Assembly: GCF_002514735.1 (NCBI RefSeq)
Contig: NZ_NBWU01000001.1
Location: forward strand, 434,001-498,000
DNA: 64,000 bases
From: Sediminicola luteus
GTDB taxonomy: Bacteria; Bacteroidota; Bacteroidia; Flavobacteriales; Flavobacteriaceae
Direction: 5' to 3'
The notes under the pieces are model-generated. The model was not told the origin of the DNA. It saw only the letters and a list, made by a program, of their open reading frames with translations, and ran no database searches. The position numbers were made by a program, and so were the translations under genes. Shown in pieces: positions 26,467-47,295 of the stretch (its first letter is position 1; the number at the start of each line of letters is the position of its first letter).

Positions 26467-27591
26467 CTATGACTCAGGCAAATTCAAAATGTAGTTGGTG
26501 CTCCTTCCACCTTCTCCTGAATCCAACAGCACCCCTTTTTCTACCAAATCCTGAATATCCCTAAGGGCCGTATCTCGATGTACTTTTGTCATTTTTGCCC
26601 ATTTCGAGCTATGTAACTTTCCTATGAAGTCACCATGGAGTTTATTGATCATATAAACTTGCCGGGCATTGAATAGCGTAGTTTTATGTTGCTCCCAAAA
26701 TTTTGCCTTTACCAATATTTTGGATAATAATTCATCTGTTGCCGTAAGTGCCTCAATCAAGCGTTCAAAATACCACACGAGCCAGTGCGTCACATCCATG
26801 CTTCCTTTTTGGGTTGATTCCAAAATATTGTAATATCCATTTTTTGATTTCATGATTTGTGCCGACATACTATAGAATCTTTGATTGGTTCTGTCGGCAC
26901 GAGCCAATTGACAATCACCAATCGCTCTTGCAATCCTCCCATTTCCATCGTCAAACGGGTGGATGCTAACAAACCACAAATGCGCAACGGCCGACTTGAT
27001 TATTGGCTCCACTCCCTCATTCGTATTGAACCATTCGATAAATGCATTCATTTCGTTTTCAAGTCTTGATGCCGTGGGAGCTGTATAATGCACTTTCTCG
27101 CTTCCCATAGGCCCGGAAACAACTTGCATGGGGCCCTTCTTATCATCTCGCCAGTCTCCAACGATGATTTTGTATAGGCCACTTCTCCCCGTTGGAAAAA
27201 GCGCCGCATGCCACCCGCATAGACGATCTTTGGAAAAGGGGGCTTTAAAGTTCTGGGTAGCATCCAACATCATTTCCACCACACCTTCAACATCACGGCT
27301 TGCTTCAGGTAGGCCTGATATATCCATTCCCAACCGTCGAGCTACAGACGACCGTACCTCTTGGGGGTTCAACAATTCACCTTCAATTTCACTTGTCTTT
27401 ACAATATCATCGGTTAATGTTTCGAGCACAGCTTCTTCTTGTAACTCAAAACCCATTCCCTCCATTCTTCCGATAAGCCTGCCCTGAAGGTTGCGCGCTT
27501 GACTTACATACGGAAGTAAGGTTTCATTGTCCCAATCAAAATTTGGCCAATCTTTCCTCTGATGTAGATACACGATAAATTGATTTAACAA
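26467..27591 (-). CDS. Fic family protein with DUF4172-type N-terminus
   Basis: This product has 374 residues and starts with TTG; no in-frame ATG is available nearby. The N-terminal domain (about 10-100) has the DUF4172 look (WPNFDWDNETLLPYV). It contains the autoinhibitory helix motif TSEIEG (66-71), matching (S/T)xxxE(G/N). The Fic core has HPFDDGNGRIAR with catalytic His211 (HxFx(D/E)GNGRxxR). A C-terminal winged-helix segment follows (KMTKVHRDTALRDIQDLVEKGV). Such proteins transfer AMP or related groups to hydroxyl side chains of target proteins and are held off by the inhibitory Glu. It lies just outside the mobile element, next to the occupied tRNA site. Confidence 0.92.
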   Translation of the reverse strand: MLNQFIVYLHQRKDWPNFDWDNETLLPYVSQARNLQGRLIGRMEGMGFELQEEAVLETLTDDIVKTSEIEGELLNPQEVRSSVARRLGMDISGLPEASRDVEGVVEMMLDATQNFKAPFSKDRLCGWHAALFPTGRSGLYKIIVGDWRDDKKGPMQVVSGPMGSEKVHYTAPTASRLENEMNAFIEWFNTNEGVEPIIKSAVAHLWFVSIHPFDDGNGRIARAIGDCQLARADRTNQRFYSMSAQIMKSKNGYYNILESTQKGSMDVTHWLVWYFERLIEALTATDELLSKILVKAKFWEQHKTTLFNARQVYMINKLHGDFIGKLHSSKWAKMTKVHRDTALRDIQDLVEKGVLLDSGEGGRSTNYILNLPES

Positions 27592-27810: not shown

Positions 27811-27853
27811 GCGGTCTGGACGGGACTCGAACCCGCGACCCCCTGCGTGACAG
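27811..27853 (-). repeat. Left att repeat: displaced 3' part of tRNA-Asp
   Basis: This 43-bp stretch is identical to 47221-47263 and covers the anticodon-stem 3' side, T arm and acceptor 3' strand of tRNA-Asp. The sequence continuing to the right (27854 on) does not restore a tRNA. This is therefore a fragment without D arm, anticodon loop 5' side or promoter. On its outer side the discriminator G is followed directly by an encoded CCA (minus strand, plus 27809-27811), as expected of the original gene. Confidence 0.93.
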
Positions 27854-27970
27854 TCGCAAATTATTGGTTTTCAAATAGTTGCATTTAGTTTCTTTTGTTT
27901 TGAAAATCAGTATTTTATGGTTTTTCGCTTTTCTTTTAGCTTCCTTGAGACTACATTTAAGTATTCATTT

Positions 27971-27991
27971 GTTGTACCTATGTTGTACCCA
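27971..27991 (+). other. Recombinase arm-type site candidate, left
   Basis: Two GTTGTACC units 11 bp apart form a 21-bp block that is repeated exactly at 47150-47170 in the same orientation. It lies 117 bp inside the left att core and just before the integrase start. The one-helical-turn spacing and presence at both ends suggest binding sites for the recombinase or its accessory factor. Confidence 0.65.
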
Positions 27992-28004
27992 AAACCAGAA
28001 AAGT

Positions 28005-29216
28005 ATGTCTTCAATCAAAGTAGTTTTAAGAAAAAAAGCATTATCCAATGGCTCATTTCCAATCTTTTTGCGGGTAACTAAAAACCGTAGAACCAAATAT
28101 TATCGCACTCCTTTGAATACCACTTTGCAGGAATGGAACGAGGATACAGGTTCTTTTAATGGAAAGAATGGGGGTTACATTCAAAAGAATCGGGTGCTAT
28201 TGAAAATAAAAGACCGAGCTCTAAAAACGTATTATGACTTGGAGCTTGAAAAAGAAGATTTCTCGCTTGAGGATTTTGACAAGCATTTTCGGGTAGATAC
28301 CAATCCAGCTTCACAAGATGTATTTCGGTTTTGGGATGAAATTATTGAAGAAATGCGTGATGCTGGCAGAATGGGTAATGCCAAATTGTATCACGATGCT
28401 TCCAATTCAATCAAAAGATTTATTGGTTTTAAAAGCCTGCGTTTTACTGAGATTGATGCTACTTTTTTAAATAAGTATGATGCTTTTCTACGTTCAAGGG
28501 GTGGAACTGATGGTGGAATTGGTGTCAAAATGCGAACTATTAGGGCCATGTATAACAAAGCCTTGGAACGTAATATTTTTAAAGTAGAAAAACATCCCTT
28601 CCATGTTTATAAAATCTCAAGATTAAAAGGGAAGGGCATCAAGAGAGCCTTGAATTTAGAGCAAATCAACAAGATTCATAACGTCGATTTGGCTAAGTAT
28701 CCACATCTAATCAATTACCGAAATTATTTCATGTTCAGTTTTTATTCTAGAGGAATGAACTTTGCTGATATGATTGAGTTAAAATGGGGTGATATCCATG
28801 GTGAACGCATCCGATACATCCGTAATAAAACAAAGCGTCCATTTTCAGTTAAAATTAATCCACCCTTAAAAGCTATTTTGGATTACTATCGTGAACACTC
28901 GCTGGGGACAAAGTATATTTTTCCAATTCTCTTATACAACGATTTGACCCCTTTGCAGTTGGATCATCGTAAAAAGAAAACGTTGGCTCAATACAACAAA
29001 GGCTTAAAGGAAATAGCCAATCTCTGTGGTATCAATCAAGCCTTAAGCTCTTATGTGGCCAGGCATAGTTATGCCAATTGTCTTAAACAAAAAGGAGTGG
29101 CTACAGACATTATTGGAGAATCGCTTGGGCATGCAGATATAAAAATTACCCAAGTCTACCTCAAAGAATTGGGTAATGAAATTGTAGATGACGCAGTGGA
29201 AGTGCTCTTTAACTAG
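28005..29216 (+). CDS. Tyrosine recombinase (integrase) of the element
   Basis: This product has 403 residues from the ATG at 28005. A longer in-frame extension would run back through the arm-type repeats into the tRNA junction and has no recombinase-like sequence. The N-terminal arm-binding domain (about 1-90) is followed by the SAM-like core-binding domain (about 105-205), then the catalytic domain. Catalytic residues seen are Arg249 (FYSRGMN), a Lys in the beta-hairpin (NKTKRP, about 274-278), Arg353/His354 (VARHSYAN), His376 (LGHADIK) and nucleophile Tyr385 (QVYLK). It belongs to the Bacteroidota conjugative/mobilizable-element integrases. It sits next to the left att site, as expected. 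Confidence 0.95.
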   Translation: MSSIKVVLRKKALSNGSFPIFLRVTKNRRTKYYRTPLNTTLQEWNEDTGSFNGKNGGYIQKNRVLLKIKDRALKTYYDLELEKEDFSLEDFDKHFRVDTNPASQDVFRFWDEIIEEMRDAGRMGNAKLYHDASNSIKRFIGFKSLRFTEIDATFLNKYDAFLRSRGGTDGGIGVKMRTIRAMYNKALERNIFKVEKHPFHVYKISRLKGKGIKRALNLEQINKIHNVDLAKYPHLINYRNYFMFSFYSRGMNFADMIELKWGDIHGERIRYIRNKTKRPFSVKINPPLKAILDYYREHSLGTKYIFPILLYNDLTPLQLDHRKKKTLAQYNKGLKEIANLCGINQALSSYVARHSYANCLKQKGVATDIIGESLGHADIKITQVYLKELGNEIVDDAVEVLFN

Positions 29217-29657: not shown

Positions 29658-30524
29658 ATGAGGCCACTTTCAATAGCAAAACAAGTTACCTATAGGGATG
29701 GTGAATCACTTAAAAGATATCTGCAGGATGTAAGCCGTATCCCCATGATTACGGAAGATGAAGAAGTCGAGTTGGTAATTCTAATAAGAAATGGGGACAA
29801 TTTGGCGCTTGAAAAGTTGATTAATTCAAATTTGAGGTTTGTTATATCCGTAGCCAAACAATATCAAGGCCGGGGTTTGAAATTACTCGATTTGATAAAC
29901 GAAGGAAATCTGGGATTGGTAAGGGCTGCAAAGCTATTCGATGAGACCCGTGGATTTAAATTCATATCTTATGCCGTTTGGTGGATACGTCAAGGGATAC
30001 TCCAGGCGTTGATGGAAACCACAAGAATGGTAAGATTGCCTCTGAACAAAATAAGCGTAATTAACAAGATAACCAAAGCTTCCTCCAATTTCGAACAGAT
30101 TCACCAACGACTCCCTTATGCCGAAGAAATTTCTGAATTGATAGACGTTTCTCTTGCTGAGGTCCAACTCTGTATGAAACATTCTATGTGGCCCATGTCT
30201 ATGGATGAAAGATTAAATACAGAAAGCGACAACTTTACGCTGTATGAAGTTTTAAGTTCTGGCAATTTAGATAGCCCTGAGAAGGGTCTTATTGAAAATT
30301 CATTAAGGACAGAGTTAGGGGGATTGCTAAATATCCTTTCGGATCGTGAGACCTACGTGATCAAAAAATATTACGGGATTGGAACAAATAACGGAATTGG
30401 CATGGGTCAAATTGCCTACCAACTAGGCCTCACAACAGAACGGGTAAGACAGATTAAAACGAGGGCATTGTTACGTTTAAGGGAGTCATCAAAGTGCGAC
30501 TTCCTTAAGGAATATTTGAAATAG
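29658..30524 (+). CDS. RpoD-like sigma-70 factor carried on the element
   Basis: This product has 288 residues. Region 1.2 (SLKRYLQDVSRIPMITEDEEV), region 2 (LRFVISVAKQYQGRGL, DLINEGNLGLVRAAKLFDETRGFKFISYAVWWIRQGI), region 3 (RLPLNKISVINKITKASSNF) and region 4 (LSDRETYVIKKYYGI, IAYQLGLTTERVRQIKTRALLRLR) are all present. It is as short as the primary sigma of Bacteroidota and clearly related to it. Substitutions in the region 2.4/3 area and region 4 linker suggest a paralogue with altered specificity. It may direct RNA polymerase to the cargo promoters, which lack obvious housekeeping -7 motifs. Confidence 0.93.
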   Translation: MRPLSIAKQVTYRDGESLKRYLQDVSRIPMITEDEEVELVILIRNGDNLALEKLINSNLRFVISVAKQYQGRGLKLLDLINEGNLGLVRAAKLFDETRGFKFISYAVWWIRQGILQALMETTRMVRLPLNKISVINKITKASSNFEQIHQRLPYAEEISELIDVSLAEVQLCMKHSMWPMSMDERLNTESDNFTLYEVLSSGNLDSPEKGLIENSLRTELGGLLNILSDRETYVIKKYYGIGTNNGIGMGQIAYQLGLTTERVRQIKTRALLRLRESSKCDFLKEYLK

Positions 30525-31935: not shown

Positions 31936-32073
31936 ATGTCGAGAGAAAAAGAAGGAAAACAGAAATCAGGAAAAACAGCGCCATCAAGCACGCCGAAAGA
32001 GAAAAAAGCCGCAAAAAGAGCAAAACGGGATGCTAAAAAAAGAGCGGAACAAAACAATAAGTTACAGACTTGA
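31936..32073 (+). CDS. Small basic Lys/Ala-rich protein
   Basis: This 45-residue frame (MSREKEGKQKSGKTAPSSTP, then KEKKAAKRAKRDAKKRAEQN) ends at TGA 32071-32073, three bases before the cupin ATG. It has 16 or more Lys/Arg residues and no Cys or hydrophobic core, so it is likely disordered and nucleic-acid binding. Similar short Lys-rich proteins are common in Bacteroidota stress regions. The strong compositional bias and abutting downstream start support a real gene. Confidence 0.6.
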   Translation: MSREKEGKQKSGKTAPSSTPKEKKAAKRAKRDAKKRAEQNNKLQT

Positions 32074-32075
32074 TT

Positions 32076-32405
32076 ATGGAACCAGGTGAATTTGAAGAAT
32101 TAAAAACGTTTAATCTGGTAGATGTATTGGAATACAGTTCCAATGACATAGTAGTCAAAAACATAATGGTTCAGGATAATTGTATCATACAGGCGTTTGT
32201 ATTTGATTTTGGCAAAGTTCAATCTTTTGAAGAATCTCCTTACTCTCGCTTCATTCACATAATCGAGGGAAAAGCTGAAATGGTAATCAACAATAATTCC
32301 ACTTTTATGCAAATGGGAGATTCCATTATTGTTCCTGCATATACGTTTAGTTCTATCGAAGCAAATCATAAGTTCAAAATGATTTGTACTACCATTAAGG
32401 ACTAA
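32076..32405 (+). CDS. Cupin-domain protein
   Basis: This product has 109 residues from the ATG at 32076 (an in-frame TTG six bases earlier overlaps the previous stop). The cupin beta-barrel pattern is visible: FVFDFGKVQSFEESPYSRFIHIIEGKAEMVINN in strands, then GDSIIVPAYTFSSIEANHKF. The usual metal-binding His pair is only partly present, so catalysis is uncertain; it may be a small-molecule sensor or binding protein. It precedes the D-amino-acid cassette by 142 bp on the same strand and may share its transcript. Confidence 0.75.
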   Translation: MEPGEFEELKTFNLVDVLEYSSNDIVVKNIMVQDNCIIQAFVFDFGKVQSFEESPYSRFIHIIEGKAEMVINNNSTFMQMGDSIIVPAYTFSSIEANHKFKMICTTIKD

Positions 32406-32547: not shown

Positions 32548-33627
32548 ATGAAAGCTAAAGCTCTGGTTTATTGTGAAAATGAATTTGGCCGTATAGACGG
32601 TAAAGTGGCCAATGGACTTATTCGGCAATCGGAGACCTATGAAATCGTCGGGGTCATTGATAGTTCTAAGGCTGGTCAGGATGCGGGAGAATATCTTGAA
32701 GGTGTAAAAAATGCAATTCCCATTTTCGAAAGTATAGCAGTGGCTTTAGAAGAATTAAACGCTATCCCTGAATATTTTATTTATGGTGTCGCCCCACTCG
32801 CTGCCTTCTTAAGTGATGAGCAAAGGGAAGTTATTTTTAGTGCTATGAAGGGTGGAATGAATATAGTTAACGGTCTTCCTGAGTTTCTCAGTGAGAATAC
32901 TCAATTTGCCCGTATGGCCCGTAATTATGGAATAACCATACTGGATGTCAGAAAACCTCCAAAACGTGAAAATCTCCATAATTTTTCGGGACGTATTCAA
33001 GAGGTGAAGGTTCCGATAATTACGGTAATGGGTACTGATTGTGCGGTGGGTAAAAGAACCACATCATTGGTATTGGTGGAAGCCCTGAGGAATGTAGGTA
33101 TTAATGCTGTCTTTGTGACCACCGGTCAGACGGGCTTGCTCCAAGGCTCCAAATATGGGGTGGCCATAGATGTCTTAACCTCTGGGTTTGCCACGGGTGA
33201 GGTTGAAAACGCCATCTTAAATGCCTATAATCAGGAAGGACCTGATATCATCGTTGTGGAAGGACAGGGAGCATTGAGCCACCCTGCATTTACTTCTTCA
33301 AGTGCCATTATTCGTGGGGCAATGCCAGATGCAATCATAATACAACATTCCCCGAAGCGGAAAAGTTATTGTGACTACCCTAGAATTCCTTTGTTGGATT
33401 TGGTAGATGAGATTGAAATGATAGAGGTATTCTCCAAATCAAAAGTTATCGCCATTACCATTAACCCTGAAAACATGACCCAAGAAGAGTTGAATCAAAT
33501 AATAAATCAGTACGAATCAGAATATGATTTGCCTGTTTCGGATGTCTTACTACACGGATGCGATAAGCTGATTAAAGAATTGATCAAAACATTTCCAGAG
33601 TTAGAAAGAGAGTCGGTGTTGGTTTGA
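32548..33627 (+). CDS. DUF1611 family protein (DgcN-like acyltransferase candidate)
   Basis: This product has 359 residues. The N-terminal Rossmann-like half (about 1-150; VVGVIDSSKAG type strand-loop, FIYGVAP) is followed by a P-loop half with GTDCAVGKRTT (162-172). A characteristic DUF1611 segment follows (IIVVEGQGALSHPAFTSSS; QHSPKRKSYCDYP). Members of this family have been reported as D-glutamate N-acetyltransferase (DgcN) and are often found beside amino-acid racemases, dipeptide epimerases or D,D-dipeptidases. Here the stop overlaps the racemase start by 4 bp, which makes a D-amino-acid or peptidoglycan-fragment role likely. The actual acyl donor and acceptor are not shown by the sequence. 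Confidence 0.85.
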   Translation: MKAKALVYCENEFGRIDGKVANGLIRQSETYEIVGVIDSSKAGQDAGEYLEGVKNAIPIFESIAVALEELNAIPEYFIYGVAPLAAFLSDEQREVIFSAMKGGMNIVNGLPEFLSENTQFARMARNYGITILDVRKPPKRENLHNFSGRIQEVKVPIITVMGTDCAVGKRTTSLVLVEALRNVGINAVFVTTGQTGLLQGSKYGVAIDVLTSGFATGEVENAILNAYNQEGPDIIVVEGQGALSHPAFTSSSAIIRGAMPDAIIIQHSPKRKSYCDYPRIPLLDLVDEIEMIEVFSKSKVIAITINPENMTQEELNQIINQYESEYDLPVSDVLLHGCDKLIKELIKTFPELERESVLV

Positions 33628-34709
33628 ACTTTCCCAGAATCGATATTGATTTGGCAAAGACTGCCCACAACATCCGACAGTTGAAAAAATTGTACGGCTC
33701 CCAAGGCATTGATATAATAGGGGTGACCAAGGTAATCGGGGGCAATCCGATAATCGCTGATGTATTGGTCAAGAATGGTATTAAAATCCTTGCAGACTCT
33801 CGAATTTCGAATATAATAAAAATGCGAAGAGCAGGCATAAAGGCACAATACCTGTTACTCCGAACACCAGCACTCAGCCAGGTACAAGAAGTCGTTATTC
33901 ACACCCACATAAGCCTAAATTCTGAATTGGAAGTTCTAAAAAGACTATCGGAGTGTGCTTTGAGAAACCATATCACACATAAAGTTGTTCTCATGGTGGA
34001 ACTTGGAGACTTGCGGGAAGGAATCATGCCATCGGAAATGAATTCCATTGTAAAAGAAGTACTCAGCATGGAGGGCCTGGACTTGGTGGGCATAGGAACG
34101 AATCTTGCATGCTTTGGCGGAATAAGTCCTGATGCGGACAAAATGAACGAGTTGTCTTCAATGGCCATTCGTCTGGAAGAAAAATTCAAAATCACCCTAG
34201 CAATTGTGTCCGGCGGTAACTCCGCAAATTACAACTGGGTTACGTCTTCAAAAGATGTGGGCAGAATAAACAGCCTACGATTAGGGGAATCTATTTTCTT
34301 AGGAAGAGAGGCACTTTGTAGAAAACCAATACCGGGACTTTTTACCGATATTTTTACTTTGATGGCTGAGATCATCGAAGCAAAACGAAAACCATCACAA
34401 CCCTATGGCCAAGTATATCAAAATGCGAATGGTGATATCCCTAAGTTTGAAAATAAAGGCTTGATGGATAGGGCGATTCTTGCTATTGGAACGCAGGACG
34501 TTATAGTTTCAGGAATTACTCCAAAACAAAAAATAACCGTGCTGGGTGCCAGCAGTGATCATTTGTTGATTGACAATACCGAAACAAATCTAAAGGTCGG
34601 AGATACTATGGCGTTTGACCTGAATTATAGCGCACTGTTAAGAATATTTAGCACCCCTTACATTGCAAAAAACACAATCAATCAATATGAATGTGAAAGC
34701 ATACTGTGA
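33624..34709 (+). CDS. Alanine-racemase-fold PLP amino-acid racemase (ornithine racemase-like)
   Basis: This product has 361 residues and starts at the TTG within TTGA, overlapping the upstream stop. The N-terminal TIM barrel carries the PLP lysine Lys36 in IIGVTKVIGGN. Further PLP-binding segments are MVELGDLREGIMP and SGGNSANYNWV, and LRLGESIFLGREA is diagnostic of the alanine/ornithine racemase group. The C-terminal beta domain is short. Substrate could be ornithine, alanine or another free or N-acylated amino acid. It is translationally coupled to both neighbours: a DUF1611 protein before it and a DdpX-type dipeptidase after it (23-bp overlap). Confidence 0.88.
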   Translation: MNFPRIDIDLAKTAHNIRQLKKLYGSQGIDIIGVTKVIGGNPIIADVLVKNGIKILADSRISNIIKMRRAGIKAQYLLLRTPALSQVQEVVIHTHISLNSELEVLKRLSECALRNHITHKVVLMVELGDLREGIMPSEMNSIVKEVLSMEGLDLVGIGTNLACFGGISPDADKMNELSSMAIRLEEKFKITLAIVSGGNSANYNWVTSSKDVGRINSLRLGESIFLGREALCRKPIPGLFTDIFTLMAEIIEAKRKPSQPYGQVYQNANGDIPKFENKGLMDRAILAIGTQDVIVSGITPKQKITVLGASSDHLLIDNTETNLKVGDTMAFDLNYSALLRIFSTPYIAKNTINQYECESIL

Positions 34710-35361
34710 GGAGGTCGAGAAAAAAGACCTTCAGAATAAACTTTTGGCCCCCTCAATCTGGATACGGGAAAACCATTCACAAATGGTGAGTTTAATGGAC
34801 ACGGATTTTAATTTGATTTTTGAACCTTGTATTTTGGAAGATTACCAATATTCGATCAGAGAAGATATCATGGAAAAAATTGGCCGAATTAGTAAAGCAT
34901 TGGATAGACAAAATAAAATGTTGATTGTCCGTTCTGCCTGGAGATCTTCCGAACATCAAAAGCTTTTATGGGATTCCAAATTTGCACACCACCAGAAAAA
35001 ACATCCCGAAAAATCGAACAGTGAAATCAAAGAAACCATAAGCTATTTTATCGCTCCCCCAACCATGTCGTTGCATGCGACAGGTGGCGCAGTAGATGCC
35101 TTGATTTATGACAAACTTGAGGATGGTGTGATGGATTTTGGAACTAACAATGGTTTGGAAATCGACCTTTCAAAAAAATGTTATCCCTACCATCCAGATA
35201 TTAGTGCTAAAGCGAAAAAAAATAGGGCCTTGTTGATCGGTCTATTTGAAGACGAAGATTTTGTATGTGATTTGAAGGAATATTGGCATTTTGATTATGG
35301 CAATGTAGTTTGGGCCATTGAAAAAGAAAAGGAATATGCCATTTATGAACCCATAACTTAG
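34687..35361 (+). CDS. VanX/DdpX-like D-Ala-D-Ala dipeptidase (M15D)
   Basis: This product has 224 residues from the ATG at 34687, inside the end of the racemase gene. Zinc-site motifs of the family are complete: SLHATGGAVDALIYD with His130 and Asp137 (SxHxxGxAxD), and EYWHFDYGN with catalytic Glu198 and His201 (ExWH). A VRSAWRSS segment near 81-88 contributes the conserved substrate Arg. No signal peptide is present, so it works in the cytoplasm, as expected for recycling imported D,D-dipeptides. No vanRSHA neighbours are present, so this is not a vancomycin-resistance cluster; the context points to D-amino-acid catabolism or wall recycling. Confidence 0.93.
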   Translation: MNVKAYCEEVEKKDLQNKLLAPSIWIRENHSQMVSLMDTDFNLIFEPCILEDYQYSIREDIMEKIGRISKALDRQNKMLIVRSAWRSSEHQKLLWDSKFAHHQKKHPEKSNSEIKETISYFIAPPTMSLHATGGAVDALIYDKLEDGVMDFGTNNGLEIDLSKKCYPYHPDISAKAKKNRALLIGLFEDEDFVCDLKEYWHFDYGNVVWAIEKEKEYAIYEPIT

Positions 35362-36083: not shown

Positions 36084-36929
36084 ATGGATAATAGCCCTAT
36101 GGGTGAGTTGAAAAATATATTGAAAAAAGGGCAAAGGAGAAACCTGAACATTATTGCCACATTGGTTGTATTGCTTTTTGCGTTCAAACCATGGGTTCAA
36201 ATTGGCGCAGGCGAGCGGGGGGGTGTCCAGAATTTTGGAGCCGTACAAGACCATGTTTTGAATGAAGGAATACACTTCAAGATACCGATAGTACAAACGG
36301 TAATCTTGATGGACGTAAAAATTCAGAAGGCAATGACAGATGCTGCCCCTTCATCTTCTAACCTGCAGGATGTAGACCTATCTGTTGCCCTCAATTATCA
36401 TATCATACCTGATAAAGCCAATTTGGTATATCAAACCATTGGGGTTGAATTCAAAGAACGTATCATTGACCCAGCAATTCAAGAGGTAATGAAAGCTGTG
36501 TCAGCCAGATACACTGCCGAGGAATTGATTACCAAGAGGCCTGCAGTCAGTACCGAAATGCAACAAGCACTCACTTCAAGATTGCTGGCATCGAACATAG
36601 CAGTTGACGCTTTTTCGATTATCTCATTTAGTTTTTCCCAAACGTTTACCGATGCCATTGAGGCAAAACAGACCGCGGAGCAAAATGCTCTGAAGGCAAA
36701 AAGAGACTTGGACAGGATAAAGGTCGAAGCCCAACAAACCATTGCTGCGGCAACAGCCGAAGCCGAAGCGCTACGGTTACAAAAAATGAATATTTCTCCT
36801 GATCTTATTGAGCTAAGAAAGATAGAAGCTAACCTTAAGGCCATAGAAAAATGGAACGGGATTTTACCTGAAGTGACTGGTGCAGGTGCAATTCCATTTA
36901 TTGGAGTAGGTGGTGCAATTAAAAACTAA
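36084..36929 (+). CDS. Prohibitin-like SPFH/Band 7 protein
   Basis: This product has 281 residues. One N-terminal membrane helix (NLNIIATLVVLLFAFKPWV, about 19-37) precedes the SPFH domain (about 40-215; GVQNFGAVQDHVLNEGIHFKIP, VDLSVALNYHIIPDKANLVY, RIIDPAIQEVMKAVSARYTAEELITKR in parts). A prohibitin-type coiled coil follows (TAEQNALKAKRDLDRIKVEAQQTIAAATAEAEALRL in parts), and it ends GAGAIPFIGVGG. Prohibitin-type proteins form large membrane rings and act with membrane proteases and in stress responses. It is coupled to a small membrane protein by a TAATG overlap. Confidence 0.93.
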   Translation: MDNSPMGELKNILKKGQRRNLNIIATLVVLLFAFKPWVQIGAGERGGVQNFGAVQDHVLNEGIHFKIPIVQTVILMDVKIQKAMTDAAPSSSNLQDVDLSVALNYHIIPDKANLVYQTIGVEFKERIIDPAIQEVMKAVSARYTAEELITKRPAVSTEMQQALTSRLLASNIAVDAFSIISFSFSQTFTDAIEAKQTAEQNALKAKRDLDRIKVEAQQTIAAATAEAEALRLQKMNISPDLIELRKIEANLKAIEKWNGILPEVTGAGAIPFIGVGGAIKN

Positions 36930-37180
36930 TGATGAGAATGTCTTGGGATTTTAATACAGTATCCATAATTATGGTGTTGTTGTTTGTCCACCTTATATTA
37001 GGTGGTGTTCGAGGACTATATAGACATCTAATGATTGAAAAACATCAACACAATTATTATGCCGACCCTCCCATGAATATTTTTGGCAAACTCGCACACA
37101 ATTGGTTGGCCGGTACTTTGAGTTCGACCACTTTTTTCCTTTCAGCTTCCATTACGGTAATGCTTTTTTTATTCTTTTGA
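36929..37180 (+). CDS. Small membrane protein coupled to the SPFH gene
   Basis: This product has 83 residues. Its ATG overlaps the stop of the prohibitin-like gene (TAATG). Two membrane helices, about 9-27 (VSIIMVLLFVHLILGGVRG) and 62-82 (STTFFLSASITVMLFLFF), flank a hydrophilic loop with HQHNYYADPPMNIFGKLAHNW. No family is recognised. The coupling suggests a subunit or regulator of the SPFH ring. Confidence 0.65.
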   Translation: MMRMSWDFNTVSIIMVLLFVHLILGGVRGLYRHLMIEKHQHNYYADPPMNIFGKLAHNWLAGTLSSTTFFLSASITVMLFLFF

Positions 37181-37923: not shown

Positions 37924-38115
37924 TTAAACCAATTCCACATTTACTGCGTTCATTCCTTTTTCTCCTCTTTCCACTGTAAATTTAACGTTGTCATTTTCAC
38001 GAATCTTGTCAATAAGACCGCTTTGGTGCACGAAGACATCCTCATCGGAATCTGTAGGTTTGATAAAACCAAATCCTTTGGCACTATTGAAAAATTTTAC
38101 TGTTCCTTCTTTCAT
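37924..38115 (-). CDS. csp: Cold-shock-domain protein
   Basis: This product has 63 residues from the ATG at 38115; a longer frame to 38169 exists but adds a basic stretch not found in the family. The cold-shock domain is complete: GTVKFFNSAKGFGFIKP with RNP1 (KGFGFI), RNP2 (DVFVHQSGL), and a C-terminal NVKFTVERGEKGMNAVNVEL. Such proteins bind single-stranded RNA and act as RNA chaperones. It lies 78 bp downstream of a fatty-acid desaturase on the same strand, forming a unit that fits adaptation to low temperature or envelope stress. Confidence 0.95.
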   Translation of the reverse strand: MKEGTVKFFNSAKGFGFIKPTDSDEDVFVHQSGLIDKIRENDNVKFTVERGEKGMNAVNVELV

Positions 38116-38193
38116 TACTTTATATTTATTATTTACTCTTTTGTTCAATACTCGTTTTATAATATTCATCTTATTTTTTGTCTTAAAATTTCG

Positions 38194-39327
38194 TTATTGC
38201 CGCACCACGATAGTCTGCAGCTTTCCCAATTTGCGCAAAACGCTGACATGGTCTCTAATGGCACTAACGAATGTTCGTTTTGTATTATAGGGCATCCCAT
38301 ATTCTCTGGCTGTTTCCGCCACGATATTTGATATTTTTTTATAGTGTACGTGACAGATGTTGGGGAGTAGATGATGTTCTATTTGATAGTTCAGCCCCCC
38401 GATCAACCAGGAAAAAAACCTGCTTCTGGGCGCAAAATTGGTTGTAGTGGCCAATTGGTGCGCAAACCAATCGCCTTCGACCACCCCGTCTTTATCAGGT
38501 AGGGGAAACTCCATATCTGGCATAATGTGTGCCACCTGAAATATACTACTGATGAGCAGTCCAGTGACAAAGTGCATGCTCAGGAAGGCCAAGATAATAA
38601 TCCACGGGGCCAAGGGTACCATTAGCAAGGGTATGATCAGGGCATACGAATAGTAAAGCAGCTTCCAACCAATTATCTTCATAACTTCATCCCTGAATTC
38701 ATTCTTTTTGTTCAGATATCCCATCTTCCTGTAGCGTGCAAGTCGAACAAAGTCTTTGGCCGTGACCCATGAAATGGTGGATATGCCATAAAAGAACCAC
38801 ACATACCAATGTTGGAATCTATGCAGTGCATTTTTCTTGGCATGTGGAGAAAACCTAAGGAAAAAGGGAGCATTTATATCATCATCCGCTCCTTCTATAT
38901 TTGTGTAGGTATGGTGCAGTACATTGTGTTGAATTTTCCAAACCGTGGCGTTCGCACCTATGAGGTTCATGGTATAACCAAGGTATTTGTTCACTTTTTG
39001 ATTTTTGGAGTACGAACCATGGATGGCATCGTGTATGATGCCCATGCCGATTCCGGCCATACCAATTCCACTGGTTATATATGAGGCAAAAAGCAGCCAT
39101 GGGGATGCAATGGCGCCAATATTGATAAAAACAAGGGGAACAAAGAACACTGTTAACATCAGAATGGTCTTACCGACCATGCTTTTGTTCGCATGCTTGC
39201 TGATATTGTTTGTTTTGAAATATTGGTTTACCCTGTTCCTAACTGTTTTTGAGAAATCAGAGTTTGTTCTTTTTGAAAATTTTGGCCTATTGATGCCGTC
39301 AATTGTGGTTTGATCTTTTGTCCACAT
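38194..39327 (-). CDS. Membrane fatty-acid (acyl-CoA/acyl-lipid) desaturase
   Basis: This product has 377 residues. Three histidine boxes of the front-end/acyl-lipid desaturase family are present: HDAIH (99-103), HNVLHH (134-139) and QIEHH (315-319). Four membrane helices are arranged around them (e.g. about 54-72, 78-98, 225-260). It introduces double bonds into fatty-acyl chains using di-iron and oxygen; the Q-first third box is typical of linoleoyl-CoA/delta-6-type enzymes, though no cytochrome b5 domain is fused. Upstream of the cold-shock gene, it suggests regulation of membrane fluidity carried as element cargo. Regioselectivity cannot be told. Confidence 0.93.
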   Translation of the reverse strand: MWTKDQTTIDGINRPKFSKRTNSDFSKTVRNRVNQYFKTNNISKHANKSMVGKTILMLTVFFVPLVFINIGAIASPWLLFASYITSGIGMAGIGMGIIHDAIHGSYSKNQKVNKYLGYTMNLIGANATVWKIQHNVLHHTYTNIEGADDDINAPFFLRFSPHAKKNALHRFQHWYVWFFYGISTISWVTAKDFVRLARYRKMGYLNKKNEFRDEVMKIIGWKLLYYSYALIIPLLMVPLAPWIIILAFLSMHFVTGLLISSIFQVAHIMPDMEFPLPDKDGVVEGDWFAHQLATTTNFAPRSRFFSWLIGGLNYQIEHHLLPNICHVHYKKISNIVAETAREYGMPYNTKRTFVSAIRDHVSVLRKLGKLQTIVVRQ

Positions 39328-40655: not shown

Positions 40656-41729
40656 TTACCTACTTTTTAATATTTGGAGCAATCTATGGTTGATAAAATA
40701 ATTGCTCTTCCCAATTTTCAACTTGGTCAAAAACTGTTCTTCGTGTTGGGCAAGCGCATTCAAATAGCTACTTGCAGTGTTTCGGTGCACGTTAAGCTCA
40801 CGCTCTAAAAAATCAATTTTAGTGTAGGGATGCTTAAAAAGAGTATTGATTAAATCGTGACTGTAAAACTTGAATTCACGTCGTATCTTCTGTTTATATT
40901 CATCCATCAAATGTTTGATATTGTTGACTACCACAATGGTGTCCCTAGCGGTAATTTCCACTCCCTTCAACATCCATAACAACCATTCTTGCCAGCTTTC
41001 GTCGGTTCGTACTTTTTGCAACAATCTGTAATAATCCGCTTTGTTTTTAATGATGTAACTGCTCAAATATAAAACAGGGATGTCCAGTAGGTTTTGATGA
41101 ACCAAATACAGCATATTCAGTATTCTCCCTGTTCTACCGTTGCCATCATAAAAAGGGTGGATACTCTCAAATTGATAATGCACAATGGGCATTTTAAGCA
41201 AAGGGTCCACGGGATGTACTTTAGGATCATTGATATAGGTTTCCAAGTTGTTGAACAGGGCCATAATTTCACTGTATTGTTGGGGTGGTGTAAATACAAC
41301 TTCTTGGGTCCGAGGGTTTTTTAGAACCGTACCAGGTACTTTTCTTATGGGATGATTGGGCGAAACAAGCTCTTGTATTCGTTTGATGTCGTTAATACTA
41401 AGCACTCCTTTTTCCCGTATGATATGAAACCCCAATTTTAAGGCCTGAGCATAGTTTTGTGCTTCTTTGGCGGCTTGCGAGATATTTTTGGTCTCAATAG
41501 CAGCCTGGTACAACTCATCATCTGTAGTCACAATATTTTCAACTTCATTACTGTCCTTTGCCTCTTGTAATGAAATGGTATCTATGAGTATCTGTGAATT
41601 GGGTATCTTTTTTACCTCTCCCTTTAATTGGGCCAGGGCACGGCTTGCTGCATTTAAGTTTTTCAATACAGCAACCGTCTCTATCTGAACCTTTGGCGGT
41701 AGAAAAGGAATTTGAACTTCTGTTTCCAA
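40656..41729 (-). CDS. Fic family AMP-transferase with N-terminal inhibitory motif
   Basis: This product has 357 residues. The Fic_N-type N-terminus (about 1-90) carries the inhibitory motif SNEVEN (60-65; (S/T)xxxE(G/N)). The Fic core has HPFYDGNGRTGR with catalytic His191, and the flap (VFTPPQQYSEIMALFNNLETYI). A C-terminal winged helix (YTKIDFLERELNVHRNTASSYLNAL) could bind DNA or act in dimer control. The architecture resembles the class II Fic proteins typified by the Shewanella enzyme. Expected activity is AMP transfer to its own or target hydroxyls, relieved when the inhibitory Glu is displaced. It differs clearly in sequence from the chromosomal Fic at 26467. Confidence 0.92.
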   Translation of the reverse strand: METEVQIPFLPPKVQIETVAVLKNLNAASRALAQLKGEVKKIPNSQILIDTISLQEAKDSNEVENIVTTDDELYQAAIETKNISQAAKEAQNYAQALKLGFHIIREKGVLSINDIKRIQELVSPNHPIRKVPGTVLKNPRTQEVVFTPPQQYSEIMALFNNLETYINDPKVHPVDPLLKMPIVHYQFESIHPFYDGNGRTGRILNMLYLVHQNLLDIPVLYLSSYIIKNKADYYRLLQKVRTDESWQEWLLWMLKGVEITARDTIVVVNNIKHLMDEYKQKIRREFKFYSHDLINTLFKHPYTKIDFLERELNVHRNTASSYLNALAQHEEQFLTKLKIGKSNYFINHRLLQILKSR

Positions 41730-42334: not shown

Positions 42335-43192
42335 TTAAATACCCATTCCTTGGTCAATGGATTTCTTGATTGCTTTTTTGGCAAGGGATATTGCTAGCTT
42401 CTGAGGAACCGGGACCACTTTGTCCAACAATTTGATAGTGTTCTTTGGCGAGATGATTCTATTTGGCGCATTGTAGCGCGTTAGTTGTCTCCCAATTCCA
42501 GCCATGCCCATATTTCTATGTATCTCACTTCCCTTAAAACTGTGTCCTTGAAATTCAAATCGAAAACCTTGGAGTTTACCTTGCTTATTGATACTTGGAA
42601 TGACGTCAACCCCATTGGCTTTCATCCCAATAAGATACAGTTGATAGTTTTCAGGTTTTTGATGTCTCAAGGTCAGCTCATGTCTTCGTTTGATTTCATT
42701 GCGCAATTCTTGGGTCTGGAATTCCCGTTCCATCTGTACTTGTTTAACCGTGGTCAACCGTAAAGTTTCAGCAGTTTTTTCGGCGGCCTGTTGACTCCGT
42801 TTTCCAATAAAGCTGTCATTGTAGGCGATTCCTTTGAAGTCAATACGGTTCACATATAAGTGAATATGGGTATGCTCTCTATCCCTATGGACAAATGCAA
42901 TGGCTTGTCGTTCACCAAGCTTCATTTTCTCCATGAACTCCTTAGCGACCCTTTCAAGCTCTTGTTTTTTTAGACGTTGCCCATCGTTGATTGTCGGACT
43001 GAGTACAAAAGATAGTGTGTTGCGTTCACAGTTATGGTTCAATTCCTGTATGCGCTTAAATTCTTCGGTAATCTCTTTGGGGTTTTCCCCTACCAAGTGC
43101 TGTCTAAGCACTACCTCGGCATCCTTTTCCTGATTCCAGCCATAACCCATCGAGGCACGGGTATGTGATATGGATTTTCCCTTGCCTATCAT
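42335..43192 (-). CDS. Relaxase / mobilization nuclease (MOBP-type)
   Basis: This product has 285 residues. The three-His metal motif with downstream Asn is clear in HTHIHLYVNRID (His107, 109, 111; Asn115), as in PF03432 relaxases. The N-terminal SMGYGWN may contain the nicking Tyr (Tyr17), but this is a guess. It is expected to nick the element's oriT and pilot the strand during mobilization. Its start overlaps the MobC-like gene stop by 4 bp (ATGA). The C-terminal part is basic (ISLAKKAIKKSIDQ). Confidence 0.93.
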   Translation of the reverse strand: MIGKGKSISHTRASMGYGWNQEKDAEVVLRQHLVGENPKEITEEFKRIQELNHNCERNTLSFVLSPTINDGQRLKKQELERVAKEFMEKMKLGERQAIAFVHRDREHTHIHLYVNRIDFKGIAYNDSFIGKRSQQAAEKTAETLRLTTVKQVQMEREFQTQELRNEIKRRHELTLRHQKPENYQLYLIGMKANGVDVIPSINKQGKLQGFRFEFQGHSFKGSEIHRNMGMAGIGRQLTRYNAPNRIISPKNTIKLLDKVVPVPQKLAISLAKKAIKKSIDQGMGI

Positions 43193-43725
43193 TTGCTGAA
43201 TCTTTTAAGATGTTCCTTGATTTGCTTAGCAGTTTCGTAGACCATTTCAGTGAGCTTTGGACTTTTCTTCCGGAACATATTGCCAATCGATTTGAAGTTG
43301 TTGTGGTATTTGGCCAACATTTGATAGATTTCGATTTCCTCATCCGACAATCGTTCAACAGTGGCTTGTTCCATGGCCGCCCTGCGAAGGAATTCACTTA
43401 ACGACAACCCACATAGTCTGGCTTTGGCCAATAACAGCTTTTTTTCATAAGTGGTACAACGGAATTTCACCAACTGGGTTTTTCCCTTAAACGACTCCTT
43501 TTTTCCCCTGCGACCATCGGGAGCAGGCGAGATTGTGTCCACAGACACACATCTCGAATTCTTAACAGAATTACGTTTTGGGTTGCCCGTTTCATCAATC
43601 AATTCTGATAATGTCACGCTAGATACTGCTTCTTCTTGGGTGAGGGGTACATTATTTTTTTCTGCCCAACGACGTAATGCAACTTCAAGTGCATCAAATT
43701 CTTTTTCCAAATTATTACTGCGCAT
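43189..43725 (-). CDS. MobC-like relaxosome accessory protein
   Basis: This product has 178 residues. The C-terminal half has the MobC/ribbon-helix-helix pattern (LVKFRCTTYEKKLLLAKARL, then GLSLSEFLRRAAM and a long helix IYQMLAKYHNNFKSIGNMFR). The N-terminal part is polar and probably disordered. It should bind oriT DNA and help the relaxase, whose gene it overlaps by 4 bp. It overlaps the primase gene end by 11 bp upstream. Confidence 0.88.
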   Translation of the reverse strand: MRSNNLEKEFDALEVALRRWAEKNNVPLTQEEAVSSVTLSELIDETGNPKRNSVKNSRCVSVDTISPAPDGRRGKKESFKGKTQLVKFRCTTYEKKLLLAKARLCGLSLSEFLRRAAMEQATVERLSDEEIEIYQMLAKYHNNFKSIGNMFRKKSPKLTEMVYETAKQIKEHLKRFSK

Positions 43726-44566
43726 GATGCTTCAACTTTTCGTTTATATCCTTAAATCCAGCATAACAATTTCTTCGGTCTGTAGCTTTTGGATACAATC
43801 CGATTAAATAGTGTGTCGCTTTATCTCCTGCGCTGTCATTGTCCAACGTTAGATTGAGGGCGGAATATTTTTCTAGGATGGAATTGACTTTTGTAGCAAA
43901 GGCCAGAGAGTTCAGAATAAGTACATCAGATTCAACGAACCATTTGGGTTGAATAACCAAAAGCGACAAAAAATCGAACATTCCCTCAACTACCGTAAGT
44001 CTTGGATTGTGATTTTCAATTAAGGTGATGGCCTTGGGAGATGCACAGTATTTCTGGAAACAATTGCGTAGTTCCCATCCCCCATTTTTGTTTTGTAGCC
44101 CCAGAGCAAAAAAGGATTTTTCACCTATTCCGAAGTGTACTTGTTTGATATATCCATAAGCCAAGGTCAATGGGATTTTACGCTTTTGTAGGTAATCAAT
44201 TAAGGCCACATGACTTATTGGCCTTATATCGTGAATACTAATTCTCTTCTCTTTTAAAACTGGGAGGGGCTGATGAAAAGAAAAAGAACTTGTTTGGCCC
44301 TGGAGCCATATTAAGGTTTCCCCGACACCAAAGCTTTTCAATCGACAAACAAGGTCGATTACGTTTCCTCCAAGGCCTTCCCCATGGTCGTACCATCTAT
44401 TTAGGGTTTTGGAGACTTTAAAAGAGGCTTGGGTTTCTGACCGGAAGGGACTCAGAAACCAAGCTTCTTTTTCCGTTTCCCTTACTGGAAAGTGCCCTAG
44501 CTTTGCCATCGTGTGAACGATGCTAACGGTACGGGCTCTTTCACAGTTAAATCTTTTTTCTTTCAT
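43715..44566 (-). CDS. Toprim-domain DNA primase of the element
   Basis: This product has 283 residues from the ATG at 44566 (MKEKRFNCERARTVSIV). An in-frame start 28 codons upstream is possible but adds no recognisable sequence. The N-terminal half looks like a degenerate CHC2-type zinc region (AWFLSPFRSETQASFKVSKTLNRWYDHG in parts). The C-terminal Toprim core has its catalytic Glu in LTVVEGMFDFLSL and the Asp pair in LTLDNDSAGDKA. It likely primes replication of the transferred strand or of the excised circle. It belongs to the element's replication/mobilization operon. Confidence 0.85.
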   Translation of the reverse strand: MKEKRFNCERARTVSIVHTMAKLGHFPVRETEKEAWFLSPFRSETQASFKVSKTLNRWYDHGEGLGGNVIDLVCRLKSFGVGETLIWLQGQTSSFSFHQPLPVLKEKRISIHDIRPISHVALIDYLQKRKIPLTLAYGYIKQVHFGIGEKSFFALGLQNKNGGWELRNCFQKYCASPKAITLIENHNPRLTVVEGMFDFLSLLVIQPKWFVESDVLILNSLAFATKVNSILEKYSALNLTLDNDSAGDKATHYLIGLYPKATDRRNCYAGFKDINEKLKHHAQ

Positions 44567-44690
44567 GGCTCTATTTACATTTAAATTTTGATGATTTGAT
44601 GAAGAATCATTCAAAAGGGCCATTCCTGATGGTCTTACTGGCTTCATCATTTTTTCATCGATTCATCATTTCATCTTTATTTGGTTCTAG

Positions 44691-44733
44691 CTTTGTCATC
44701 ATTCTTTGTTTTGATGACGGAATGATGACAAAG
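44691..44733. repeat. 14-bp perfect inverted repeat within a TGATGA-rich region
   Basis: CTTTGTCATCATTC (44691-44704) and GAATGATGACAAAG (44720-44733) are perfect inverted copies separated by 15 bp. The surrounding 44590-44800 contains many further TCATCA/TGATGA units on both strands. It lies between the helicase and primase genes. It may be a replication or transfer origin with iterons, or a binding site for the element's HTH protein. Confidence 0.6.
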
Positions 44734-44771
44734 TGATGACAGATTTAAATCCCATAAATAGAGGGATGTTC

Positions 44772-45977
44772 CTAGGATGTCATCATTTCATCAAAATTTT
44801 TCAGCAGAAAATGCTTGGAGATGGAAAAGTACCTGCCTTTTGCATCCTCTAAATTGATTTCACCATTGTTCCAAATGGTTGCCCGCTGGTAGCTGTTTGA
44901 GTTTTTCTGGTTTTCCAATTTCCAATCCTTCTTTAACAGTCTACGCAATTGGGTCAGGTCAGTCTTCACCCTGGTCTTGTTGAGCATGTGGAGGGCATCC
45001 ATGGGGCATAGTTGGATTTCGCTCAACTCAAACTTGTCCATGGCGCTAAGTAGTAGACTGGCCAATTCTTTTTCTACTCTGTTGCGGTTGTTGTTCACTA
45101 GCTTTTTTAGAGCTGGAGTAAATAGTTGGTTGGGTGAAAACCACATTCGAGTGGATTGAATCGTACTGACTTTACGATTGCCCAGATAGGATAGAAATGC
45201 TGGGATTTCAGTGATGAGTTTTTCCAAAAAGTCTGTTTCCTCATTTTTGATGGGAGGAATTTTACGAACCCAGAAACGCGTTTCATTACCATCAATTTTA
45301 ATGAAGTTATCCTCGTTGTTGCTACAGAGGATAAACTTCCCGAAGAACTCCACTTCACGTTTGTCTTTCCCTTTGGCCTCTAATTTGTTTCTATTGGTGG
45401 TACTCAGGTATTTTATGCGCTCTGTGAGTTCCTCTTTATTGAACAATACTTCATCTATGCATATCAAAAGCTTATTGGCCCAATCTGCATTGAACTGACT
45501 GCCAAAACTGTCGTTGGTGAGGTAGGTAAGGTTGTTTTCAAAGATTTCCTTTAGCCATTTTAAGAAAGAACTTTTTCCTGTGCTGCGTTCCGAAGATACC
45601 AGACACAAAATCGGCAAAATCTGGATGGGCTTTACATATAATAACTGCAGATAATCCAATCCCAATTCCCTTTGGGACCCAAAGATGTGCTCCAAGAATT
45701 GTAACGTCTTATCAATGGTGCCTTCCTTTGGAACAAAGCTTAAGGGAGAGTAGATATTATAGAAGTCATGGTGTTCTTTTTTGAAATCTATGTGGTTGGG
45801 AATACAGGTGAAACCATCATACTTTGGAACCTTGCTCAAAAAATCCTTACCATAATCTTGCTTAATGGTATGTTCACTCCACGAAACCAATTGTTCGTTA
45901 AAATGGCCTGAAATTGTGGGTGATTTTACTAGTTTATAATACGTAGTACCCACCCTTACATAGGGGATTGTTTCCAT
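44772..45977 (-). CDS. D5/DUF5906-type replication helicase
   Basis: This product has 401 residues. The Walker A motif SSERSTGKSS (128-137) and Walker B LLICIDEV (Asp175, Glu176) are followed by an Asn/Asp-rich sensor segment (FILCSNNEDNFIKIDG) and an Arg-rich FWVRKIPP, as in superfamily 3-type helicases fused or paired with primases in phages and mobilizable elements. The C-terminal domain (about 300-401) has winged-helix character. It probably unwinds the element's origin, working with the Toprim primase encoded next. Confidence 0.88.
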   Translation of the reverse strand: METIPYVRVGTTYYKLVKSPTISGHFNEQLVSWSEHTIKQDYGKDFLSKVPKYDGFTCIPNHIDFKKEHHDFYNIYSPLSFVPKEGTIDKTLQFLEHIFGSQRELGLDYLQLLYVKPIQILPILCLVSSERSTGKSSFLKWLKEIFENNLTYLTNDSFGSQFNADWANKLLICIDEVLFNKEELTERIKYLSTTNRNKLEAKGKDKREVEFFGKFILCSNNEDNFIKIDGNETRFWVRKIPPIKNEETDFLEKLITEIPAFLSYLGNRKVSTIQSTRMWFSPNQLFTPALKKLVNNNRNRVEKELASLLLSAMDKFELSEIQLCPMDALHMLNKTRVKTDLTQLRRLLKKDWKLENQKNSNSYQRATIWNNGEINLEDAKGRYFSISKHFLLKNFDEMMTS

Positions 45978-47220: not shown

Positions 47221-47263
47221 GCGGTCTGGACGGGACTCGAACCCGCGACCCCCTGCGTGACAG
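47221..47263 (-). repeat. Right att repeat within tRNA-Asp
   Basis: This 43-bp stretch is identical to 27811-27853. Recombination within it between the element circle and the chromosomal tRNA gene explains both junctions. Confidence 0.93.
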
Positions 47264-47295
47264 GCAGGTATTCTAACCAACTGAACTACCAGACC
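47222..47295 (-). tRNA. tRNA-Asp (GTC)
   Basis: This is a 74-nt gene without encoded CCA. The acceptor stem GGTCTGG pairs with CCAGACC, the D arm has GTTCAGTTGGTTAGAAT, and the anticodon arm CCTGC-CTGTCAC-GCAGG gives anticodon GTC (Asp). The T arm has the GGTTCGAGTCC pattern and the discriminator is G. The 5' part lies on the chromosomal side. The last 42 nt lie in the 43-bp repeat shared with 27811-27853, so the 3' part was supplied by the integrated element. After the discriminator the sequence reads CACCA, so the CCA end must be added enzymatically. Confidence 0.96.

Follow-up and report, generated by a model that had tools for sequence, protein, structure and literature searches.

Do three overlapping genes on a mobile element of Sediminicola luteus act together on D-amino acids, and what would such a function do for cells that acquire it? 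The genes lie in a stretch of 64,000 nucleotides (the window; contig NZ_NBWU01000001.1, positions 434,001 to 498,000) and encode a DUF1611 protein, a PLP racemase of the Orr family and a VanX-type M15 metallopeptidase. We put at about even chances the reading that the trio is one cytoplasmic D-amino-acid module, combining D,D-dipeptide splitting, racemization and N-acylation, that serves salvage or detoxification under envelope stress.

The gene trio and its island

The first-pass annotation had placed three overlapping genes here. All three are open reading frames at those positions, except that the dipeptidase had been started at TTG 34663; ATG 34687, 24 nt downstream, is the better-supported start, since separate homologues mostly align from that methionine. 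The DUF1611 stop and the racemase start share a 4-nt overlap (TTGA at 33624-33627), and the racemase and dipeptidase genes overlap by 23 nt from the ATG or by 47 nt from the TTG. A crude hydropathy check found no hydrophobic N-terminal stretch in any of the three proteins, consistent with a location in the cytoplasm.

The trio sits in a 19.4-kb mobilizable island with attachment-site repeats at a tRNA gene, an integrase and a relaxase (Table 1). The tRNA-Asp is the single full-length match in its own genome, and the left repeat is a truncated copy. The direct repeats of 43 bp enclose the tyrosine recombinase and the MobA/VirD2-type relaxase, together with genes resembling those for primases and helicases, in agreement with the mobilizable element proposed at the outset. 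A search for shared regulatory repeats in the island returned only short two-copy matches.

Table 1. Positions of features in the window and, where a locus number is given, in other genomes
Feature	Position	Strand	Basis or remark
Fic/DOC adenylyltransferase	26467-27591		just outside left attachment-site repeat
Left attachment-site repeat, 43 bp, 3' part of tRNA-Asp	27811-27853		exact repeat of 47221-47263
Tyrosine recombinase (integrase)	27879-29216	+	Pfam Phage_integrase, SAM-like and Arm-DNA-binding domains
Sigma-70 family factor, regions 1.2-4	29658-30524	+	family models
AraC-type regulator, 186 aa	30804-31364	+	
Small cupin-like protein, upstream of cassette	32070-32405	+	weak hit to Cupin_2, under its cut-off
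DUF1611 protein (DgcN homologue, Walker-A GTDCAVGKRTT)	32548-33627	+	Pfam, NCBIfam
Orr-family PLP racemase, fold type III	33624-34709	+	NF040742, predicted structure
VanX-type M15 metallopeptidase	34687-35361	+	Pfam M15, predicted structure
SPFH/Band-7 (HflK-like) protein, co-cargo	36084-36929	+	Pfam
Small membrane protein, overlaps SPFH gene	36929-37180	+	ORF
Cold-shock-like protein, co-cargo	37924-38169	-	ORF named by eye
Fatty-acid desaturase, co-cargo	38194-39327	-	Pfam FA_desaturase
Fic/DOC adenylyltransferase	40656-41729		inside island
MobA/VirD2-type relaxase	42335-43192	-	Pfam Relaxase, 99 bits
MobC-like small protein	43189-43725	-	by eye, from position and sequence beside relaxase
Toprim primase-like and DUF5906/VapE-like helicase genes	43715-45977	-	
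Right attachment-site repeat, 43 bp, within tRNA-Asp	47221-47263		exact repeat of 27811-27853
tRNA-Asp	47222-47295	-	
Pilotin-like lipoprotein, Vibrio plasmids	L020:8094-8459, L021:8094-8459, L123:9097-9474, L124:9083-9448		

Family assignments and predicted folds

Pfam assigned DUF1611_N and the DUF1611 P-loop domain (217 bits) to the first protein. Against the DgcN model NF041892 it scored 162 bits over residues 77-345 only, below the 480-bit cut-off, and its Vibrio and Virgibacillus homologues scored similarly. DgcN is described as the key gene, with DgcA, of a pathway converting D-Glu to L-Glu (PMC12363236, PMC10845958). The trio is like that pathway in having a DUF1611 gene followed by a racemase gene, in Walker A and core residues common to DgcN, and in its D-amino-acid theme. 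In contrast, the DgcN-DgcA racemase belongs to the enolase superfamily, whereas its counterpart in the window belongs to the PLP fold III family PF01168; the window also adds a VanX-type dipeptidase, and its DUF1611 protein falls in a separate clade. Judged by its sequences, with the DgcN score below cut-off and no DgcA as neighbour, the trio resembles a DgcN-type pathway with other partners and is not a member of DgcN-DgcA. In a phylogenetic tree the racemase-linked DUF1611 proteins group in a single clade, supported at SH-aLRT 96, together with three sequences that have no racemase neighbour. The window DUF1611 has a 100% match in Allomuricauda (locus L038), a genus to which the window genome is close, and no relative was found among the viral contigs searched.

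The second protein matched Ala_racemase_N (92 bits) and, over positions 1-350 of 351, the ornithine racemase (Orr) model NF040742, with 387 bits against a cut-off of 480. Beyond this shortfall, it differs from Orr in its DUF1611 partner and, in some loci, in its fusion to a peptidase. Its predicted structure (pLDDT 91) matched alanine, broad-spectrum and lysine racemases with Z-scores of 26-30, including CdALR (Z 29.5, 332 residues aligned, 2.8 A rmsd). The PLP lysine, Lys36, is invariant in 44 of 44 racemase sequences. With this lysine and a TIM barrel plus beta domain, the model has the features of a fold-type III PLP amino-acid racemase.

The third protein matched Peptidase_M15/VanY (34 bits) and reached neither curated cut-off, scoring 22.7 bits with VanX (cut-off 320) and 42.4 with DdpX (cut-off 176). 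Its predicted structure (pLDDT 95) was closest to VanX 1r44 (Z 17.2, 175 residues at 3.4 A), followed by VanY at Z 11.4. S128xH130, D137, E198, H201 and R82 are invariant across 30 homologues, so that the zinc-site and catalytic residues of VanX and DdpX (SxHxxGxAxD, ExxH and Arg) are in place on a predicted VanX fold. The protein departs from those enzymes in its 15% identity and in being joined or fused to a racemase.

A different chemistry, in which the fold-III enzyme would act on D-hydroxy-amino acids as an aldolase or dehydratase and the M15 protein would be another kind of peptidase, is improbable. It draws on the D-threonine and beta-hydroxyaspartate aldolases, which match the racemase model as well as many racemases do (Z 27.8 for the fold-III D-threonine aldolases, inside the racemase range), on the variable Y261, which by-eye alignment places at the second catalytic tyrosine of Alr and where just 30 of the 44 sequences have Tyr, and on the curated Orr, VanX and DdpX cut-offs that were not reached. 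Against it stand the full-length match to the ornithine racemase model and a VanX match far above those of other M15 folds.

Recurrence, fusion and co-evolution

To survey the cassette, we searched a DUF1611 alignment against 84,980 genomes, one per species, which gave more than 550 relatives, and read the neighbourhoods of the best 80 with flanks of up to 10 kb. Because the query was built from racemase-linked DUF1611 proteins, the survey counts describe one clade. Among these best 80 loci of more than 550, an Orr-like racemase was present in 73, nearly always directly downstream of DUF1611 and mostly joined to it by a 4-nt or other short overlap. Two of the seven loci without a racemase lie at a contig edge, and three belong to Acetobacterium or its near relatives. 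Within the 73 racemase-bearing loci, 26 have M15 as a gene of its own and 17 have it joined to the racemase in one protein, and none was seen in 30. All racemase-bearing loci of Bacilli are among these 30, a few of which stop at a contig edge. The 30 loci without M15 suggest that the dipeptidase step is optional, and the wider core of the cassette is DUF1611 plus racemase. The first-pass annotation had left it to such a survey whether the racemase and VanX/DdpX-type dipeptidase recur with DUF1611, and the wide recurrence found here answers that in its favour.

The distribution of the complete trio is patchy: 8 of 249 Flavobacteriaceae genomes carried an M15 relative, each together with DUF1611 and the racemase. 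In an independent Pfam search of 395 Bacteroidota genomes, 30 DUF1611 loci were examined, of which 2 had the DUF1611-racemase-M15 arrangement, 14 lay near DgcA or another epimerase of the enolase type and the remaining 14 had neither. The frequency of enolase-type epimerases in related clusters, which had been asserted beforehand, is thus confirmed, and true DgcN-DgcA and epimerase pairs were seen at other DUF1611 loci.

A homologue of the cupin-like protein was found in 27 of the best 80 loci, and outside Bacteroidota no extra conserved operon partner was recurrent. As single cases there, L092 has an amino-acid permease and L088 an Amidohydro_3 protein, and L063 and L077 both have a YitT protein. 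Four archaeal metagenome-assembled genomes (L099, L080, L083 and L093, from Thermoplasmata, Methanomicrobia and Methanogenium) appear to carry DUF1611 proteins of this clade, three with a racemase and none with M15; these copies possibly reflect real transfer or binning error. On Vibrio plasmids, the third cassette gene, at the position of M15 in Bacteroidota, encodes a small lipoprotein resembling type II secretion pilotins (GspS-beta, T2SSS_2).

In the 17 fused loci of the best 80, racemase and M15 form one protein of 579-597 aa with M15 at the racemase C-terminus. Twelve are Aquimarina loci and one is a Psychroserpens locus; the others fall in a single clade made up of Cloacimonadota, Zixiibacteriota and Neomarinimicrobiota. 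The racemase tree requires three changes of fusion state, two of which are forced by well-supported branches, pointing to at least two and probably three independent fusions. The distance matrices of DUF1611 and racemase were strongly correlated (Mantel r 0.86), a value reached by none of 2000 permutations, whose maximum was 0.21. We give very little credence to the idea that the genes are chance neighbours hitch-hiking on a mobile island with no shared function: the element does carry unrelated cargo such as a Fic protein, but the gene overlaps, co-evolution and cross-phylum recurrence speak against it, and the repeated fusions already contradict it.

The joining of a VanX-fold dipeptidase to a fold-III racemase also recalls VanXY and VanT of D-Ala-D-Ser vancomycin resistance, in which case the trio would edit the precursor pool: the dipeptidase would remove D-Ala-D-Ala and the racemase would provide a different D-amino acid for use in the wall. 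The racemase domain of VanT is indeed among the structural neighbours, and neither enzyme has a hydrophobic N-terminus. However, neither a D-Ala-D-X ligase nor a VanRS-like regulator was recognised beside the cassette, the DUF1611 protein is not a Ddl-family ligase, the hosts are mostly Gram-negative and the archaeal loci hold the pair only. We consider this editing role a poor fit and unlikely to be correct.

Stress-gene context and proposed function

We compared cassette loci in Bacteroidota with 19 control DUF1611 loci of the same phylum that lack a racemase. The 186-aa AraC regulator lay within 10 kb of the cassette in all 19 genera and in none of the 19 controls (p 3e-11), and at least one of SPFH, desaturase, cold-shock, GroES and MscS genes lay near it in 12 of 19 genera and again in no control (p 2e-5); both p-values are too small, as genera sharing islands are not fully independent, some genera are represented by several pooled loci and the queries came from cassette loci. 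AraC relatives are also present in genomes without the cassette. Homologues of the sigma-70 factor were beside the cassette in 7 of the 19 genera. Among the best 80 of the more than 550 loci, SPFH homologues, 76-99% identical, accompanied the cassette in 19, and homologues of the small membrane, cold-shock and desaturase proteins were near it in 9, 12 and 8 loci, respectively.

Proteobacterial plasmids give a more independent view of the stress linkage than the Bacteroidota genera. The DUF1611-racemase pair lies near HflKC and NhaA on a Vibrio parahaemolyticus plasmid, near HflKC, desaturase and NhaA on a Ruegeria conchae plasmid, near GroEL/ES and Hsp20 on a V. europaeus plasmid, and near GroEL/ES on a Phaeobacter plasmid; no such stress gene was found near the pair in V. 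lentus and V. cyclitrophicus. HflK homologues are rare on plasmids (49 of 72,556) and GroEL is less so (1,298). Since all such stress genes may be more common on large marine plasmids, the plasmid linkage is given without a p-value. Two Roseibium aggregatum plasmids (L136:11001-11399 and L137:8001-8402) have the racemase reduced to a C-terminal remnant, which still lies within a stress island with Crp/Fnr, cold-shock and transglutaminase genes; L136 also has HflKC and a universal stress protein nearby.

Most chromosomal loci tested outside Bacteroidota had none of the stress genes nearby, so any role in stress may be restricted to the mobile versions. A candidate link to stress sigma factors at the Bacilli pairs was discarded, since the upstream regions contained no match to Sigma-B, -H or -W patterns and one match to sigma-A. 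About nine Bacilli loci (L096, L097, L101, L103, L107, L108, L112, L113 and L114) have a leader in the region some 20-165 nt before the start of DUF1611, in which a promoter-like TATAAT or TATACT is followed by a long hairpin with a U-run that resembles an intrinsic terminator (for example, ACACCTTACA...TAAGGTGTTTTTTT). The hairpin suggests transcription attenuation and could represent a new leader RNA; no known riboswitch was found by Rfam at the leaders searched.

From sequence and predicted structure, we infer the substrates, direction of flux, DUF1611 reaction and physiological role as follows. The VanX-type metallopeptidase would split D,D-dipeptides, such as D-Ala-D-Ala or similar ones that derive from the precursors or the turnover of peptidoglycan, and the adjacent and sometimes fused racemase would interconvert the D-amino acids set free with their L-forms. 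The DUF1611 protein would N-acylate the D-amino acid, as annotated for its homologue DgcN, and thereby pull the flux or trap the D-form. Because a PLP racemase requires a free alpha-amino group, the DgcN-DgcA order of acetylation followed by racemization is impossible on the alpha-nitrogen; acylation would have to come after racemization, hit a side-chain amine or use the other enantiomer. The AraC-accompanied mobile stress islands of Bacteroidota point to salvage or detoxification of D-amino acids under osmotic, cold or heat stress on the envelope.

The first rival to this catabolic salvage, which remains our first choice, is synthesis of an N-acyl-D-amino acid. The racemase would make a D-amino acid such as D-Orn out of its L-form and DUF1611 would N-acylate it, yielding a compatible solute or envelope protectant, with the dipeptidase as an accessory that supplies or edits the precursor. 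Racemizing a free amino acid before N-acylation is chemically consistent, DUF1611 and the racemase are the core pair with M15 optional, genes for MscS, NhaA, desaturase, SPFH and cold-shock proteins are among the stress cargo, and several Bacilli carriers belong to known halophilic genera. Nevertheless, the pair comes with no conserved transporter or synthetase and the fusion with the dipeptidase suggests that D-amino acids are being set free, which makes biosynthesis rather unlikely in our judgment.

Mobile islands that combine several stress-protection genes are known from tLST (PMC8290217). Compared overall rather than gene by gene, the islands described here differ in their hosts and in carrying SPFH/HflKC, desaturase, CspA, GroES, MscS, NhaA and the putative D-amino-acid module. 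A description of the trio was not found in the literature searched on DUF1611, ornithine racemase and stress islands, and the trio is probably a real but undescribed pathway. The racemase-dipeptidase fusions, the wider core of DUF1611 plus racemase and the stress-gene context go beyond what the first-pass annotation had noticed. A tentative and broader proposal, to which we give somewhat less than an even chance, is that this is an undescribed D-amino-acid pathway, its racemase and dipeptidase often fused, that is spread across many phyla and, in marine Bacteroidota, vibrios and roseobacters, is regularly carried by a new class of mobile islands for stress tolerance.

D-amino acids in the ocean form a large recalcitrant pool, and new routes for their recycling continue to come to light. 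A widespread module that can include a racemase-dipeptidase fusion would offer one more such route, concrete and testable, and would suggest what one clade of DUF1611 proteins may do. Its link to mobile stress islands in three marine bacterial classes suggests that turnover of D-amino acids or D,D-dipeptides protects cells under envelope stress. If this is true, D-amino-acid handling would be a transferable stress trait.
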